Assembly (NCBI GenBank): GCA_021846395.1
Contig: JAJZXB010000002.1
Location: forward strand, 62,001-126,000
Direction: 5' to 3'
DNA from: Thermoplasmata archaeon
GTDB taxonomy: Archaea; Thermoplasmatota; Thermoplasmata; Thermoplasmatales; Thermoplasmataceae
Length of the DNA stretch: 64,000 bases
Notes under the pieces: model-generated
Told to the model about the DNA's origin: nothing
Seen by the model: the letters and a program-made list of their open reading frames with translations, nothing else
The model's database searches: none
Program-made: the position numbers and the translations under genes
Part shown: piece by piece, positions 42,322 through 50,765 of the stretch
How the letters are laid out: every line of letters begins with the position of its first letter
Position numbering within the stretch: position 1 is the stretch's first letter

Positions 42322-43746
42322 CTATCCCTTCATTACTGCCAGCGGTTTCATATTGGTAACTGGATGGGCAATATTGGCTCCATTTACAATCTTTATAACT
42401 TCATCAATGTCCTTGTAACTGTCCGGTGCTTCTTCTGCAATTGCCTTTTTCGTGGCAGCCCTTATATATATACCTCTGGAATTGAGCTCAGTGATTATAT
42501 CATCGGCTGTAAAATTTTCATTCGCTTTTTTTCTGCTAAGTAACCTACCTGCGCCGTGACATGAGCTTCCAAATGAATTTTTCATATTTTCCCTTGTACC
42601 AACCATTATGTATGAAGATGTTCCCATATCGCCCGGAATAATTACAGGATATCCTGTTTCACTGAAATTTCCAAGGGCAATATCCTTTGGAAATGCCCTT
42701 GTTGCACCCTTCCTATGAACGATAAGCTTTCTTCTTTTATTATCTATTTCATGTTCTTCAATTTTGGCCATGTTATGTGCCAAACTGTATACAAGTTCCA
42801 TGCCCATGGATTCAAAATCGTTCCTGAATATATCCTCAAACACCTTCCTTATTTTATATACTATTATCTGTCTATTAACAAATCCATAATTTGCTGCTGC
42901 ATTCATGGCATCGATATAATCCTGTCCTTCTCTGCTTTTAGTATATGCTGAGATAAGTTGCTTATCTCCCTCGTTTTTTACAGCTGCATCCGATTCATTT
43001 AATCTTAGCATAAAGTCACTGGCAACTTGATGTCCCAGACCGCGCGAACCGGTATGTATCATAATTAATATTTGATCCTTTTCAATGCCAAATTTTTTGG
43101 CTATTTTTTTGTCAAATATAGAGTCAACTCTCTGAATCTCAAGAAAATGGTTCCCCCCGCCAAGCGTGCCCAGTTCATTTATGCCTCTTTTCAGAGCCTT
43201 TTCGCTGACATTTGAATAGCCGCAATCCATTTTCCCCTGTTCCTCTGTGTTGCCCATATCCATTTTTGTTGCGTAACCATTGCTGTATGCCCATGATAAT
43301 CCTGACGATATTATATCGTTCAATTTGTTTGAATTCAGCTGAAAACTTGATTTATATTCTATTCCCACAGGTATTGATCTATAGAGATTGTCGAGAATGG
43401 GAGTTATTTTATCCCTGACATCAGCATAAGTAAGAGATGTCTTCAGCAATGAAACCCCACAGTTTATATCGTATCCAACGCCCCCAGGTGATATAATACC
43501 CTCGTCATAGTCAAATGCAGCTACGCCTCCTATGGGAAATCCATAGCCAAGATGTATGTCTGGCATTGCTATTGATTTTTCCACTATCCCGGGCATTGAT
43601 GCAACGTTTGATACTTGTTTAAGTGGCTCATCGTCTGTAAATTTACTCAACAGTGCATCATTTATGAAGACTGTTCCCTTTACTTTCATTGGGCCGGTTT
43701 TTGGAATTTCATATTCGTAATCATTGACCTTTTTCAGGTTGAACAT
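42322..43746 (-). CDS. rtcB: tRNA-splicing ligase RtcB
   Basis: RNA ligase that joins 2',3'-cyclic phosphate and 5'-OH ends, needed after tRNA intron removal. The 474 residues include IGGVAAFDYDEGIISPGGVGYDINCGV with the metal-binding Asp and Cys, LGGGNHFLEIQ, IHTGSRGLGH and SCHGAGRLLSR with the His that takes GMP. No intein interrupts it. It is a single gene with a promoter in the 70 bases before the next divergent gene. Confidence 0.96.
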   Translation of the reverse strand: MFNLKKVNDYEYEIPKTGPMKVKGTVFINDALLSKFTDDEPLKQVSNVASMPGIVEKSIAMPDIHLGYGFPIGGVAAFDYDEGIISPGGVGYDINCGVSLLKTSLTYADVRDKITPILDNLYRSIPVGIEYKSSFQLNSNKLNDIISSGLSWAYSNGYATKMDMGNTEEQGKMDCGYSNVSEKALKRGINELGTLGGGNHFLEIQRVDSIFDKKIAKKFGIEKDQILIMIHTGSRGLGHQVASDFMLRLNESDAAVKNEGDKQLISAYTKSREGQDYIDAMNAAANYGFVNRQIIVYKIRKVFEDIFRNDFESMGMELVYSLAHNMAKIEEHEIDNKRRKLIVHRKGATRAFPKDIALGNFSETGYPVIIPGDMGTSSYIMVGTRENMKNSFGSSCHGAGRLLSRKKANENFTADDIITELNSRGIYIRAATKKAIAEEAPDSYKDIDEVIKIVNGANIAHPVTNMKPLAVMKG

Positions 43747-44106: not shown

Positions 44107-44430
44107 ATGGAAGAGTATTCAATATTTAAGGAAGCAAACGAGGACGTTGAAACATTAAAAAGGCATATTTTGATTATTCAAACGCTGTTAAAGGAACAGC
44201 CACTGGGCATTATAAAAATTGCTCAACATACAGGGATACCGGAACACAAGATAAGATATTCTCTTAGAATACTTGAAAGAGAGGGGATCATTGAAGCATC
44301 GCGTGAGGGTGCAATTTTAACCTCAACATTTCTTGATCAGAAAGAAAATATATTGAATTCCGGCAGGGTACTGATAGAAAAGGTTAATTCTATCTATACT
44401 GATATAAAAAATATTCTGGAGAATCAATGA
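44107..44430 (+). CDS. Winged-helix transcriptional regulator
   Basis: A 107-residue protein. The helix-turn-helix GIIKIAQHTGIPEHKIRYSLRILEREGIIEAS lies at about residues 36-70, followed by a short wing and a C-terminal helix likely used for dimerisation. Target genes are unknown. A TATA-like run just upstream suggests a leaderless message. It overlaps the next gene by 4 bases (ATGA), so the regulator and the acetyltransferase are co-translated. Confidence 0.8.
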   Translation: MEEYSIFKEANEDVETLKRHILIIQTLLKEQPLGIIKIAQHTGIPEHKIRYSLRILEREGIIEASREGAILTSTFLDQKENILNSGRVLIEKVNSIYTDIKNILENQ

Positions 44431-44939
44431 TGTTGTGGAAGAAAAAAGAAAATCTAAGTTTGTCTATAAGAAAAGCGTATCCATCTGATGCAAGGGGAAT
44501 AATTAACTGTATGCAAAGTGTTATGGATGAAAAAATTTATCTTGTAAGCGAATACTATTTATTGACTGAAAGGGGAGAGCAGGAAAGACTGAAGAATCCG
44601 GATGAACTTACACTTGTATGCAATGATAGCGATTTGGTGGTTGGTGTCCTGACACTTCAAAGAGGCATGTATAAAAAAAACAGGCATGTTGCTAATCTTG
44701 GAATTGCAATTAGGCGAAGTTACAGGCATATGAATGTTGGAACGGGTATGATAGAGCAAGCCATGGAATGGGCAAAAAACAATGGGATAAAAAAGGTTAA
44801 CCTTGAAGTATTTTCTACGAATGCAAATGCAATAAAAACGTATAGAAAACTTGGATTTGAATATGAGGGATTGAGAAAATCCCAGTTTTTTATAAATGGA
44901 CAGTATGTGGATGATGTGCTGATGACCCGCATGTTGTAG
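44427..44939 (+). CDS. GNAT family N-acetyltransferase
   Basis: A 170-residue GNAT protein. The acetyl-CoA loop is in NLGIAIRRSYRHMNVGTGMI (R-x-x-x-G-x-G type), with NLEVFSTNANAIKTYRKLGFEYEG after it, as in RimI/SpeG-like members. The acceptor (protein N-terminus, polyamine or other) cannot be told from sequence. Coupling to the regulator upstream suggests coordinated expression. Confidence 0.88.
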   Translation: MMLWKKKENLSLSIRKAYPSDARGIINCMQSVMDEKIYLVSEYYLLTERGEQERLKNPDELTLVCNDSDLVVGVLTLQRGMYKKNRHVANLGIAIRRSYRHMNVGTGMIEQAMEWAKNNGIKKVNLEVFSTNANAIKTYRKLGFEYEGLRKSQFFINGQYVDDVLMTRML

Positions 44940-45176
44940 TTATTTATCCGACAAGTATCATTGTGTACCGATGAAATATTTGGGTGTTATTTAAAATTTT
45001 TAAACCTATCACCATATTCTCAAGATTGTTTTGGGCTTTACATCTGGCGTAACAGAGGGTACCGTGAACATTCGGACCGTTTAAAGGGCATTTTAACTAA
45101 TCCTTCAGTTCCTTTAATCAGCGTAGTTATTATTTCATATATAAACATTTAAATTTTAATTTTACATTATGCGATT

Positions 45177-46205
45177 ATGATAAAGAATAAATATAGTATG
45201 CTGATGGTGAAATATATTTCATCTTTCATTGGCATCACTATCATCCTTTTTATTTTATTTAAAAATATACCCGAAAGGATAATTGTTAACAATTATTCAT
45301 CCAGTTCATATTCCATATTGGGACTTAAATACCCTGTATTTATACAATACTTTTATTTCGTTTACGATATGATTACTGTTAATATGGGTAATATCATCAA
45401 TCCAATATATTCTGGTAGCATAAGGAATGCAATGATAATACTTCTCCCGGAAACCCTTTTTATCACAATACTGGGATTTATTGTCTCAATCAGTATATCG
45501 TATAAAATTGGTTTTTTTCTTGGATTTAGAAGCAATAAAAGAGAGAGACTTGATGTAAATGTTTTTCCTCTGGTTATATTTTATTTTTTAATACCACTTA
45601 TTTTAATAGCTATTTTCAACGGTATTACTGCTATTTTGCCATCAAAATATATCCTGCCTGCGTATATCATTCCATACAATTTCAGCTGGATTAAATTGAT
45701 GAACGATAATATATTTATATCTCATCCTACAGATATATTATTTTTTGATAGCATGATACACCATTCACCCATAATATTGATAAATTATCTTAAAAATTTT
45801 GCCATGCCATTCGCATCGTTGATAATACCGTCCACTGTTTATCTTTCAATTTTCACGAAAAGGCTGACCTCAATAGAATATAATAAAAAGTATATACGGA
45901 TAAGAATAGTAAAAAATATTGGAGATGATAAGTTCATCTATCATATAAAGAGAAATATAAGATATACAATGCTTAACGAGTTCAAAACTGTATTTGGACT
46001 ATTCCTTGGCGGCGAAATTATAATAACCTACATATTTTCATATATGAATCTTGGGGAATTCCTGATATATTCAGTAATGAATTATAAAACCGGCATCTTT
46101 GGTGTGGTTGAATCAACTTTTATATTTACAATGATGATATTCATATTCAATATGATTATTGATATTATAACTTTGGCAGGTGCAAAAAATGAGGAATATA
46201 TATAA
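45177..46205 (+). CDS. ABC transporter permease, peptide/nickel DppB type
   Basis: A 342-residue permease of the oligopeptide family. One N-terminal helix (about 12-32), an external segment, then five membrane helices. The cytosolic EAA-like loop that contacts the ATPase is only weakly conserved. The topology matches DppB. It is the first gene of a three-gene unit (permease, permease, degenerate ATPase), and its end overlaps the next permease. Upstream, 44940-45176 holds no gene but has a TATA-like element. Confidence 0.85.
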   Translation: MIKNKYSMLMVKYISSFIGITIILFILFKNIPERIIVNNYSSSSYSILGLKYPVFIQYFYFVYDMITVNMGNIINPIYSGSIRNAMIILLPETLFITILGFIVSISISYKIGFFLGFRSNKRERLDVNVFPLVIFYFLIPLILIAIFNGITAILPSKYILPAYIIPYNFSWIKLMNDNIFISHPTDILFFDSMIHHSPIILINYLKNFAMPFASLIIPSTVYLSIFTKRLTSIEYNKKYIRIRIVKNIGDDKFIYHIKRNIRYTMLNEFKTVFGLFLGGEIIITYIFSYMNLGEFLIYSVMNYKTGIFGVVESTFIFTMMIFIFNMIIDIITLAGAKNEEYI

Positions 46206-47013
46206 AATCATAAAAAACAGGATATTGATGATAAGTTCAGCAATCTTCATTGTTTATTTGTTACTGTATTTGCTGGATATAATAATTCCCGCATACCTGG
46301 GGGTAAATAATATTAACAATCTGATGGTTTTCGCATCGAAAAATAACGTATCCCCAACTGCCCCTGAATTGGGCTATGGCTGGTATAACTATCTGGGAAC
46401 CACATACCTGGGAATTCGAATTTTGCCGGCACTTATTGCCTCTTTAAAACTTGACCTGACCATTGTGTTTGTTTCTTTACTGCTCTCATTGCTGGTAGGC
46501 TTTTTTATTGGTATTTCTGGAGGAATAATAGGCGGGTTGTATGGAAAGTTTATCAGCTTAATAGATCACACTTTTTTCAATATGCCCTATGTGATCTTTG
46601 TATTATTTCTCGTATATGTAATAAAGCCATCAATATCCGGATTTATTATGGCAATTGCAATTTCATGGTTTCCATTCTATATAAGGAGAATAATAAATGT
46701 TAAAAAAATGGATGAGGAAACAGTATCTGCATATGTTAAAAAAATATTTTCCCATTTAACCCCCTATATAATCTCAGATATTGGTTCAATATACGGGATT
46801 TTAACTATTATTACATTTTTTGGGTTGTATGAAAATAACCCATTTATTGTTAATCTTGGAAACATATTAAATTTGAATGGCAATATTCTTAATCTTATCA
46901 CACTAGGTGACTGGTGGGTAGTCATATTCCCCCTAATATTCATGGTCATATTCATTATAGTCACAAATTTAATGGGGTACGAAATAAATAGGAGGATTTC
47001 CAATGGAAAATGA
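46189..47013 (+). CDS. ABC transporter permease, peptide/nickel DppC type
   Basis: A 274-residue second permease. The first helix (about 15-33) is followed by an external segment, then five helices; LLVGFFIGISGGIIGGLYG resembles the DppC family segment. The EAA-loop equivalent (SAYVKKIFSHLTPYI) is degenerate compared with typical DppC. The ATG at 46189 has an AGGTG site 6 bases upstream and is preferred to GTG 46180. It overlaps both neighbours and forms one coupled unit. Confidence 0.85.
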   Translation: MRNIYKIIKNRILMISSAIFIVYLLLYLLDIIIPAYLGVNNINNLMVFASKNNVSPTAPELGYGWYNYLGTTYLGIRILPALIASLKLDLTIVFVSLLLSLLVGFFIGISGGIIGGLYGKFISLIDHTFFNMPYVIFVLFLVYVIKPSISGFIMAIAISWFPFYIRRIINVKKMDEETVSAYVKKIFSHLTPYIISDIGSIYGILTIITFFGLYENNPFIVNLGNILNLNGNILNLITLGDWWVVIFPLIFMVIFIIVTNLMGYEINRRISNGK

Positions 47014-48337
47014 CAATGTTTTAAATTTTGAAAATTTTACTGTTTGGAAATCCGGCGATAAGGTAATGGATAATGTTAATATGAGTGTTGCTGACAGCGA
47101 TAGTTTATTATTGATTTATGGAAAAAATAAAGGGGCTTTACAGTCCATTCTCTCACTTGATATAGATAAAGATATTGACCTATACGGAAAAATAGAATAT
47201 CACGGAAAAGATGTGGTACGGGAAATAAAAAATATAAAGAGATACAGCGATAAGGATAAAAATTTAATGAAAGTCTCAGAGATATTGAAAGATATTTTTG
47301 TAATACAGGAAGAGTCATATAAAACAATGGATAAAACGCTAACCCTTGGTGAGCAGATTATTGATTTCATACCATACAATGCAAGGATCCATATGTTAAA
47401 CGCCGTATTAAGAAGGGAGATGATTTCAAGCAAGGATATTGAATTATTGATTTCCAATTATGAGAAATATACGGATAAGGAAGATTTTGTGAGATTCTGG
47501 TCAACTGAATATGCCGTTATCAATAAAACAAATGACATATACCATATTCTGCAGCAAGATGAAAATAAAGCGGATAGATTAAAAGAGCTTTTAATATTTC
47601 AAAAAACAGGAATTGATCTTGCAAATATTGTGGAACTGCGTGATTTCTATAAATATATGACAGACTTAAATAGAAATGCAGAAAATGAAAAAAACAAGAT
47701 TGATTATGGCAAATCAAAGGATGAGAGGAAAAGATTTGCCTTTTTCAAATTGGCTCTTAAGCTGAACAGGAAAGGAATAGAAGATGTCTTAACTAGAGAA
47801 TTAAAGAGATATATGCTAGAATATTTAAAATTTATGGGCTTTACAGACGATGAAAGTATTTTGAATGTCTATCCATCTGCCGATATCGAGTTGTTAATAA
47901 AGCATCTTTTTCTTGCCATTTTAATATTTTCTGATTCAAAAATGCTTGTATTTGATTATTCGAAAAATATAAAAAGATTTCTTGACAATGTTAATTTGTT
48001 AAGAAAAACGTTTGGATTCGGAGTTATATGCATAGCCAGGGATGCGGCTATACTTAAAACCATGCCGGAATTATTTGACTATGTGAAGATAATATATTAT
48101 GGCAGTACAGTTGAGGATGCCCCGGAAGGTGAGTTTATTTCAGAACAGCTGCACCCATATTCAAAATCTTTAATGGAGGGCAAAAAAAATATAAAGGGTT
48201 ATTACGGAAAGGGCTGCATATATTATAAAAACTGCAAATATTCTATGGACATATGCAAGAACGACAAACCCGATACAATCAATTTTAATGAAAAAAGGAG
48301 TGTGACATGTTTTATATATGGCAATAAAAACCCATAA
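47003..48337 (+). CDS. Degenerate ABC ATPase-like subunit of a peptide transporter
   Basis: A 444-residue protein whose layout matches OppD/OppF ATPases: an N-terminal DNVNMSV strand, a central domain, a Walker-B-like strand, and the C-terminal family tail HPYSKSLMEG plus a CKYSMDIC cluster. All catalytic motifs are altered: GKNKGALQ replaces GxSGSGKS, the LSGGQ segment is not recognisable (YPSADIELL), LVFDYS lacks the Glu after Walker B Asp, and IARD has Arg for the H-loop His. It cannot hydrolyse ATP by the normal route. The start has a GGAGGA site and overlaps the permease gene. Confidence 0.8.
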   Translation: MENDNVLNFENFTVWKSGDKVMDNVNMSVADSDSLLLIYGKNKGALQSILSLDIDKDIDLYGKIEYHGKDVVREIKNIKRYSDKDKNLMKVSEILKDIFVIQEESYKTMDKTLTLGEQIIDFIPYNARIHMLNAVLRREMISSKDIELLISNYEKYTDKEDFVRFWSTEYAVINKTNDIYHILQQDENKADRLKELLIFQKTGIDLANIVELRDFYKYMTDLNRNAENEKNKIDYGKSKDERKRFAFFKLALKLNRKGIEDVLTRELKRYMLEYLKFMGFTDDESILNVYPSADIELLIKHLFLAILIFSDSKMLVFDYSKNIKRFLDNVNLLRKTFGFGVICIARDAAILKTMPELFDYVKIIYYGSTVEDAPEGEFISEQLHPYSKSLMEGKKNIKGYYGKGCIYYKNCKYSMDICKNDKPDTINFNEKRSVTCFIYGNKNP

Positions 48338-48338
48338 T

Positions 48339-50765
48339 TTATTTTTCTAGATAATTAAAAAGTATAACGTTATAGTTATGAACAACGGGATTGGCCTTTA
48401 TTTCAATACCGCGAGTGTAATATGTATTTATAGTTAGATTTTCTGCGGGGATATAAAAATACAGTTCCTTCATAGTTTTCTGAACACGTTTTATATTGGT
48501 GGAATTATTATTCTCTGTTAAATTAACTATTTCACTATTTAATATGTTCATTAGCTTGGTTTGGTTTTTATGTGTCGAATTATATAACTGCATACTGAAT
48601 CCATTTGTGTATAGATGTGAGTAGTTTAATAGATTTCCATAATAGGAGTAATATGAGGCGGTTCCGTAATTATTTGTATCCGTAATATAAATAGGCATTG
48701 GATTTTTCTGGTACACTTCATTTGAGGATATAACTGACGATGACTCTGTTATTATTGGAAATGATGCACCAGTTACAACCCTTCTAAGGTTCTGTACATA
48801 TTTTGTTATATTGACTTCCGAATTGACCTGGTTGACAAATATTGGTATGACCAGTGAATTGTTTTTATACATAAATCCGGTTGGAGTCTTTGTTAAGTTG
48901 TATTCTGCCCCGCTTTTATTAACAAAATTATCCCACTGATTTTTGGCCAGAGTAATATTTCCACCAGGAAATGCATTGTAAAAAGCTTCCCGGACATCCA
49001 TGTTGGAAAACAGCCTTGATGGCAAATTTGAATATGAATAGGACGGCAAAAGTGAGGTATTTATATTTGAATTAAAATTGTAAATTTCTTTCAAATTTGC
49101 TGAAGTATTGTAAGAACGTATGCCTGAAACTGAGTTTGAAAGTGCCGAATATCTTGATGGCAACTGTGCTATCTGGCTTATATTCAGTTTGAGTCCCTGA
49201 TATACACTGGACAAAGATGATACATAGTATATTTTTATTGTATTTATTGATGGTGGGGGATTATAACTGTTACCAGTAAAATAAGGATTCCTAATAAGAA
49301 CTATAGAATCAGGGCTTATAGAGAAAATTTCATATGGACCATTGGCCATTATGCTATTTTTAAGGTGGGTGTTGGCATAATTTTCCGGATTGGATTTATA
49401 CTGATTGAACCCCGTACTGTTCCATGGTATGCCTGCATCATGGCTTTCCAGAAAGGATGCAGAGGTAATAAATGCCCCAGGAGAGGTTATAATACTGTAT
49501 ACCTTTTTTTGGGTCATTGGTTGATTGAAATGCAATGATATATTGTTTGTGCTGTTATCACAAGTAATTGCACTGGTTATGTTCATATATGTGTTGGATG
49601 TATAATAATTACCCGGCAACAAATATTGGCCCAGTATCCATCCGGGTGTCTGTGGTGAGTGTGCTTCCAGCAAAAGATCTCTTACAAATGAGTATTTAAC
49701 ATCCCATGCTGTGACTGGTTGGCCATTTTGGAACTTTACGTTGCCGTTTATGTGGAATGTATATGTCATATTATCATGAGAAATGTTAGGCATATTTGCT
49801 ATTTCGGGCATATATTGCCCTGTTGTTTCATTGTGAAACAGTAAAAATTCTTCAGTGTTCATGAGTATTTGCATATCTGGATTTGTATATCCTGTCTGGG
49901 GGTCAAGTGTATTGAATGTTGAGGCGGATTCATATGATATTGCAGAGTTATTTGTATTGATATAAACATGTGGATTATTGCTATTTACTGGTACATCAAG
50001 ATAAAATGATGCCGTGTGTATATTTGAAGGTATTCCATGATTTTTTACAATGCCAGTATATAATACAAGCCTTAAAGTGTAAAATCCAGATGTTAAATTT
50101 TTCATGCTGTAGATGCTGTTATTATTAACATATTTATGTTCAGAATGATTGTATTGAAACAGGGAGCTATTTTCAATCAATTCTCCGTTTTTATATACCT
50201 CCAGTTTGGAAGAAAAAATACTGTAGCTTGTGTTTCTTGGTGAGTTAAAGGATAGTGAAAAATTAAAAGAGGTATTATTTGCATATATATCAGAATTTGG
50301 AATTATTGGATTTCTGGATGAATTGTGTACGGCTATGTTGCCAGATCCATAATATGAATTTCCATAAACATATACAGGTATATATTCATTGGAAGCTACG
50401 GGTGAATTGTTATAGTTTACAGAATATGTGATATAGTATATGCCTGGAGAATTATAAATATGGCTTAACGTTATGGCCTTTGATGATGCTTTTACAATGC
50501 TGTTTTGGGTATCCCCCCAAAAAATTTCAATGCATTTCGGAACTTCGTTAGATTTCAACGTTATGTTATAGGTTGATCCCGCACTTATATAATTGCTGGA
50601 AACATTTACCGATGTTTCTGGTGTTATAGCTCGGGGATGTAACAGAGAGATTGCAACCATTGATGACAGTACAACAATTAATATTACTATGACAACATAC
50701 CATTTATTCCTTGTGGATTTCGGTCTTATAGGATATGTCTGGGGTTCAGGTATGTCATATTTCAT
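48339..50765 (-). CDS. Extracellular solute-binding protein family 5 with N-terminal PKD domain
   Basis: An 808-residue surface protein. A membrane helix at about 24-45 anchors it. A PKD-type domain follows (about 55-130) with WGDTQ and IYNSPGIYYITYSV. The family 5 binding domain has the usual order: DPQTGYTNPDMQIL, FHINGNVKFQNGQPVTAWDVKYSF at about residues 345-368, and later ITSAI and NGPYEI elements. Many N-x-S/T sites suggest glycosylation. It is convergent with the permease/ATPase operon and probably binds its peptide substrate, though it has its own promoter. Confidence 0.88.
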   Translation of the reverse strand: MKYDIPEPQTYPIRPKSTRNKWYVVIVILIVVLSSMVAISLLHPRAITPETSVNVSSNYISAGSTYNITLKSNEVPKCIEIFWGDTQNSIVKASSKAITLSHIYNSPGIYYITYSVNYNNSPVASNEYIPVYVYGNSYYGSGNIAVHNSSRNPIIPNSDIYANNTSFNFSLSFNSPRNTSYSIFSSKLEVYKNGELIENSSLFQYNHSEHKYVNNNSIYSMKNLTSGFYTLRLVLYTGIVKNHGIPSNIHTASFYLDVPVNSNNPHVYINTNNSAISYESASTFNTLDPQTGYTNPDMQILMNTEEFLLFHNETTGQYMPEIANMPNISHDNMTYTFHINGNVKFQNGQPVTAWDVKYSFVRDLLLEAHSPQTPGWILGQYLLPGNYYTSNTYMNITSAITCDNSTNNISLHFNQPMTQKKVYSIITSPGAFITSASFLESHDAGIPWNSTGFNQYKSNPENYANTHLKNSIMANGPYEIFSISPDSIVLIRNPYFTGNSYNPPPSINTIKIYYVSSLSSVYQGLKLNISQIAQLPSRYSALSNSVSGIRSYNTSANLKEIYNFNSNINTSLLPSYSYSNLPSRLFSNMDVREAFYNAFPGGNITLAKNQWDNFVNKSGAEYNLTKTPTGFMYKNNSLVIPIFVNQVNSEVNITKYVQNLRRVVTGASFPIITESSSVISSNEVYQKNPMPIYITDTNNYGTASYYSYYGNLLNYSHLYTNGFSMQLYNSTHKNQTKLMNILNSEIVNLTENNNSTNIKRVQKTMKELYFYIPAENLTINTYYTRGIEIKANPVVHNYNVILFNYLEK

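Follow-up and report, generated by a model that had tools for sequence, protein, structure and literature searches.

Coupling driven by ATP is what defines an ABC importer. In DppBCDF, the EAA coupling helix carries the contact between the transmembrane domains and the nucleotide-binding domains (NBDs), and four cysteines of E. coli DppD (C284, C290, C297, and C315) ligate a [4Fe-4S] cluster; Cys-to-Ser substitution at this site disassembles the complex (PMC12136057). The membrane domain of the ABC protein LmrA can work without ATP, powered by the proton-motive force (PMC2704374). In the archaeon Ferroplasma acidiphilum, the count of oligopeptide/peptide ABC transporters stands at seven or more (PMC5473848). 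In open-licence papers, our searches met with no account of a degenerate OppD from Thermoplasmatales. Here we analyze such a gene and its neighbors in a 64,000-nucleotide stretch of a Thermoplasmata archaeon contig (JAJZXB010000002.1, positions 62,001 to 126,000; hereafter, the window). The window is part of a 1.66-Mb genome in 25 contigs, whose nearest relative with a named record is a "Thermoplasmata archaeon" metagenome-assembled genome.

Results

The gene (47003 to 48337, plus strand) starts with ATG and runs for 444 codons without an internal stop. A ribosome-binding site, AGGAGG (46990 to 46995, plus strand), lies seven bases upstream of the start within the 3' end of permC; the start overlaps the end of permC, which in turn overlaps permB. 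The initial annotation, made from the sequence alone, had described an intact frame with a good ribosome site, coupled to two permease genes. Open reading frame, profile matches, and alignments together identify the 444-aa product as a non-catalytic orthologue of Thermoplasmatales OppD, which we call pseudo-OppD. Its best NCBIfam and PDB sequence matches are OppD/DppD/OppF proteins (E values of 5e-10 and 1.9e-9), with OppD/DppD models best in NCBIfam. A profile of 14 degenerate proteins aligns with one of 14 intact OppDs over 441 columns (HHalign probability 100, E = 6.5e-51), and on this full-length profile homology pseudo-OppD is an OppD/DppD by ancestry. The Pfam ABC_tran model gave no match, even at an E value of 10, and oligo_HPY matched at 3.7e-4 and 21.3 bits, under its cut-off of 27.1.

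The claim that the catalytic motifs are changed was borne out by alignment with intact orthologues. The former Walker A (47117 to 47137, plus strand) reads YGKNKGA, aligned as Y-GKNKGA, where intact orthologues have GESGCGKS, and the former ABC signature (47882 to 47905, plus strand) reads DIELLIKH in place of LSGGM.QR. In the former Walker B (47942 to 47962, plus strand; MLVFDYS), LIADEP of the intact proteins has become LVFDYS, the Asp being retained and the catalytic Glu replaced by Tyr, while in the former H-loop (48029 to 48043, plus strand), FITHD has become CIARD, with Arg for the His of ITHD. Walker A is lost and the LSGGQ signature is absent in all 13 aligned degenerate sequences; a few relatives retain the Walker B Glu or the H-loop His at the aligned position, and a Gln aligns at the Q-loop of the window protein, though most relatives offer none there. 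Since orthologues of other species share these losses, as the initial annotation had suggested checking, they reflect neither sequencing errors nor chance. With Walker A, the signature, the Walker B Glu, and the H-loop His gone, pseudo-OppD would not be expected to function as an OppD/DppD ATPase. The OppD/OppF layout noted earlier is kept along the full length of the protein, including HPYS and four cysteines (residues 405, 411, 418, and 436) shared with intact orthologues.

Positional orthologues of the degenerate gene are found in 14 other species, all within one clade of three genera that includes F. acidiphilum; counting the window, the degenerate form occurs in 3 species of the window's own genus (g1), 10 of g4, and 2 of g13. 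Some of the genomes compared are metagenome-assembled. We infer that g13 is Picrophilus and, from genus identities that are partly of this kind, that the clade is the Ferroplasma/Picrophilus clade of acid-loving archaea. An RtcB-like gene (42322 to 43746, minus strand) and, on the plus strand between 44107 and 44939, an HTH-like gene (44107 to 44430) and an N-acetyltransferase-like gene (44427 to 44939), all putatively named from sequence, flank both the degenerate locus and the intact operon of other genera, and these shared flanks make the degenerate and intact genes positional orthologues. The permB and permC trees each have a 100/100 branch with the degenerate sequences all on one side. 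This split agrees with the Picrophilus-Ferroplasma-Acidiplasma clade of the literature (PMC10354927) and with a single origin, but the long branches call for caution.

The degenerate protein varies in length. It has 439 to 465 aa and an Fe-S domain in g1 and three g4 species and 360 to 385 aa without the Fe-S/HPY domain in seven other g4 species; the Ferroplasma forms are among those that lack the Fe-S domain. In G094, a Picrophilus-like genome, it has 308 aa, lacks the Fe-S/HPY domain, and stops before the H-loop, and in G095 it ends at a contig edge. In G068 (L049:9549-9602), the pseudo-OppD start codon of its close relative G066 is missing; the frame stays open upstream of the next ATG, making an unusual start or a shortened protein likely.

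Intact operons have the order permB-permC-OppD-OppF with an adjoining gene for the solute-binding protein (SBP) (L052, L053, L055, and L056), and the predicted ancestral operon is SBP-OppB-OppC-OppD-OppF, intact still in other genera. Wherever the whole degenerate locus is readable, its order is permB-permC-pseudoOppD-SBP, with genes mostly overlapping or closely spaced. Most of the genera that retain the intact operon within this family have an OppF orthologue scoring ~578 to 1072 bits; in all 13 g1/g4 genomes searched, there was none above the E value threshold of 1e-90, and the best Opp matches, at most 187 bits, belong to paralogues. Nor does OppF adjoin the locus in G094. The locus thus holds the two multi-span OppB/OppC-type permeases of an importer and lacks the pair of NBD subunits, OppD plus OppF, of a complete one.

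Both permeases are divergent. PermB (45177 to 46205, plus strand; OppB type, six hydrophobic segments) and PermC (46180 to 47013, plus strand; OppC type) match the NCBIfam Opp2B and Opp2C models at about 1e-12, below the curated cut-offs, and fail to match Pfam BPD_transp_1, which their intact orthologues match at 4e-35 and 7e-26. Degenerate loci have 6 or 7 hydrophobic segments in PermB and 5 or 6 in PermC, against 6 and 6 in intact ones. The PermB coupling helix (45885 to 45923, plus strand) is eroded, KKYIRIRIVKNIG standing where intact proteins have QEYVKTARAKGVP, and the coupling-helix loop of PermC (46684 to 46749, plus strand) is both eroded and shortened, with the EAA-x3-G motif lost. 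Across the clade, the EAA loop is lost from 15 of 15 degenerate PermB and 14 of 14 PermC sequences, but it is retained in all intact relatives (16/16 and 20/20, respectively). A scan of the permeases for gained charged residues, which might indicate proton coupling, turned up no clear candidate.

The fourth gene (48339 to 50765, minus strand) encodes an 808-aa extracellular SBP of family 5 with an N-terminal transmembrane segment. It is convergent with the pseudo-OppD gene, ends beside it, and is a conserved neighbor in the clade. The window SBP matches PF00496 at 1.9e-23 over profile positions 2 to 226 of 368 only. In all degenerate loci tested, the SBP_bac_5 match covers the first half to two thirds, whereas it is nearly full in intact ones, and the C-terminal part of the SBP may be changing too.

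For pseudo-OppD, dN/dS was 0.127 to 0.201 in seven species pairs (Nei-Gojobori), with bootstrap intervals below 0.35 save for one very close pair. Values were similar for the permeases (0.08 to 0.20) and close to these for the SBP, for which two pairs gave 0.164 and 0.136. By region, pseudo-OppD gave 0.04 to 0.37, with no neutral region among those estimable, some dS values being saturated. All four reading frames are conserved in the clade, and by these substitution patterns the four linked genes are under purifying selection, with a coding function maintained. The initial annotation held that the gene is not a simple pseudogene and proposed dN/dS below 1 as a check; the low values, together with retention in 15 species of three genera, uphold this view.

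A conserved promoter-like element, AAACATTTAAAT, lies upstream of permB (45143 to 45154, plus strand). The ATTTAAAT element recurs at this place in degenerate loci, the Picrophilus-like one included. Matches to the pattern are not rare across the window (3, versus 1.3 expected); what counts as evidence is its recurrence upstream of permB.

Pseudo-OppD and intact Thermoplasmatales OppD share a long, OppD-specific helical insertion between the Q-loop and the signature (approximately residues 127 to 258; 47381 to 47776, plus strand), a feature absent from the initial description. In intact Thermoplasmatales OppD, of ~525 aa, the 318-position NCBIfam OppD model resumes only at residue 314 (profile position 121). 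A search of 300 genomes of the class recovered the insertion from Thermoplasmatales and one other family only; searched alone, it had no significant match in Pfam or PDB. The pseudo-OppD insertion carries N-x3-RRE and KxG...LRDxY. In intact OppDs, identity is 0.71 to 0.79 in the NBD core versus 0.39 in the insertion, whereas between genera pseudo-OppDs are 0.42 identical in the insertion versus 0.28 to 0.35 in the core and 0.28 to 0.37 over all other large parts, making it their best conserved large part. In degenerate proteins, the insertion has more than its share of columns conserved at 90% or more (17 of 132 versus 11 of 213 elsewhere; Fisher P = 0.014), whereas in intact OppDs it has far less than its share (10 of 156 versus 132 of 264 elsewhere). 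Constraint has been inverted, from the core in intact OppD to the insertion in pseudo-OppD. Structure prediction from an alignment of the window protein and one relative gave a mean pLDDT of 38 for the whole protein and 54 for the insertion alone, too low for a usable model.

The cysteines C405, C411, C418, and C436 (48215 to 48310, plus strand) form a [4Fe-4S]-type site with the 6/7/18 spacing of E. coli DppD. Given that Cys-to-Ser changes disassemble DppBCDF, the presence of this site in g1 and three g4 species suggests a role in assembly; by the same analogy, its absence suggests that in the remaining species this role has been replaced or dropped.

The window's genome has a second Opp cluster, G000:C25 (L057:5072-10658), with an SBP, two permeases, and two ATPases, a 327-aa OppD and a 263-aa OppF-like protein in which the Fe-S domain is largely missing. 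In several relatives, a stop codon falls within the oligo_HPY match of the short ATPase. Several Thermoplasmatales encode proteins of ~700 to 740 aa with two Opp-type ATPase/HPY matches, apparently fused OppD-OppF (L055:170-2377, G060:C1:643875-645566, and G094:C1:272635-273888).

Discussion

Read from sequence, ATP coupling has been lost at three points: OppF, the OppD motifs, and the coupling helices. Since the ATP-burning parts are gone and yet selection keeps four genes, the locus probably has a job that does without ATP. We favor, with a probability of roughly two in three, a model in which the SBP, the permeases, and pseudo-OppD form an ATP-independent membrane complex derived from a de-energized peptide importer. 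The starting point would be oppD of a Thermoplasmatales oligopeptide importer (SBP-OppB-OppC-OppD-OppF). De-energizing, most likely a single event before the Picrophilus/Ferroplasma split, comprised the loss of oppF, the decay of the OppD catalytic motifs, and the loss of the ATPase-docking helices of both permeases, after which the four remaining proteins, kept by purifying selection, most likely make up an ATP-independent membrane complex. In such a complex, the SBP would bind ligand outside and OppB/OppC would span the membrane, while pseudo-OppD would sit in the cytosol as a subunit for structure or read-out, anchored by the helical insertion and, in some species, by the Fe-S domain also. 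Even so, assembly may not need pseudo-OppD, since there is no Fe-S domain in the Ferroplasma forms and the Picrophilus-like form stops short of the H-loop.

Ligand binding would drive conformational changes with one of two outcomes. One is facilitated or proton-coupled uptake that would exploit the proton gradient, inward and very large in these acidophiles; the other is signaling as a peptide receptor. Sequence leaves the two about equally open, and we lean slightly toward uptake. The LmrA membrane domain makes proton-coupled uptake at pH about 1 thinkable. For the more specific proposal that the SBP, OppB, OppC, and the pseudo-ATPase act in these extreme acidophiles as an ATP-free proton-driven or facilitated peptide carrier, or else as a transmembrane peptide receptor, we would give even odds.

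Counting against the favored model, genes for other Opp ATPases persist in most of the clade's genomes, and these enzymes could in principle supply energy in trans. Pseudo-OppD might then be the regulatory or structural half of a heterodimeric ABC engine whose active half is encoded elsewhere, for example, by the OppD/OppF-type pair at G000:C25:20966-22609. Sharing of an ATPase among importers is documented for FhuC of S. aureus, and all g1, g4, and g13 genomes but one have at least one other Opp-type ATPase gene. We nevertheless consider this arrangement unlikely. The coupling helices are lost in both permeases, whereas in the FhuC system ATPase binding needs Ala/Gly residues of the coupling helix (PMC10147376); a borrowed ATPase could, strictly speaking, dock in a new way. 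Permeases and an SBP of its own accompany the C25 pair. The exceptional genome, G067, only 91% complete, retains both permeases and pseudo-OppD but has no oligo_HPY ATPase and no OppF-type match above about 46 bits. The initial suggestion of a structural or regulatory subunit paired with an ATPase encoded elsewhere therefore holds in its first part, a conserved non-catalytic protein, while the lost OppF, the lost EAA loops, and G067 speak against the pairing.

Less likely still, pseudo-OppD may have left the membrane complex to moonlight in the cytosol by means of its insertion, the SBP and permeases doing something else. Such a change would suit the conservation of the insertion above other parts between genera and the variable C-terminal trimming (439 to 465, 360 to 385, and 308 aa), but it sits poorly with the preserved order of mostly overlapping or closely spaced genes and with similar selection on all four. 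It is very improbable that the operon is a remnant eroding slowly toward pseudogenes after losing its ATPases: motif loss, domain trimming, and the changed start codon in G068 would be expected of one, but frames are open in three genera, the promoter-like element recurs, and dN/dS, which stays far below 1 at deep divergences too, already contradicts decay; a simple pseudogene is rejected on the same grounds (0.13 to 0.20, with conserved open frames). An assembly error or a frameshifted copy of a normal ATPase gene has a negligible chance, since the degenerate form is seen alike in separately assembled genomes of many species, F. acidiphilum among them, and sequencing error is rejected with it.

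The clade appears to have dropped the coupling machinery everywhere (second ATPase, catalytic motifs, and both docking helices) while selection keeps the rest. The locus is thus a natural experiment in what an SBP and permeases can do without ATP, and in how a pseudo-ATPase may persist in a non-catalytic role. A tally of peptide transporters would easily include such loci as ordinary members.

Among known systems, the exporters TAP, BmrCD, and TM287/288, with one degenerate nucleotide-binding site, also have a unit without catalytic residues, but they keep an active partner site, whereas here all motifs are gone and the locus encodes no partner. IsdF, HtsBC, and SirBC, served by FhuC, are likewise permeases whose loci have no working ATPase of their own; they keep the functional coupling helices that the degenerate locus has lost, and the passages of that work consulted here mention no co-encoded pseudo-ATPase (PMC10147376). 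The LmrA membrane domain, a precedent for work on the proton-motive force without ATP (PMC2704374), belongs to a drug exporter and not to a naturally ATPase-less importer, and we claim no sequence relation to it. Closer are the OppD/DppD proteins themselves (E. coli DppD and T. tengcongensis DppD, PDB 4fwi), with which pseudo-OppD shares full-length homology, the HPY motif, and, with E. coli DppD, the four cysteines of the [4Fe-4S] site in 6/7/18 spacing; it differs from them in lacking Walker A, the signature, the Walker B Glu, and the H-loop, in adding the helical insertion, and in belonging to a locus without OppF. The intact Thermoplasmatales Opp operon shares the chromosomal neighborhood, the insertion, and orthologous SBP and permeases with the degenerate locus, whose SBP gene lies on the opposite strand; the intact operon has OppF, full OppD motifs, and EAA loops in both permeases, and the degenerate locus has none of these.
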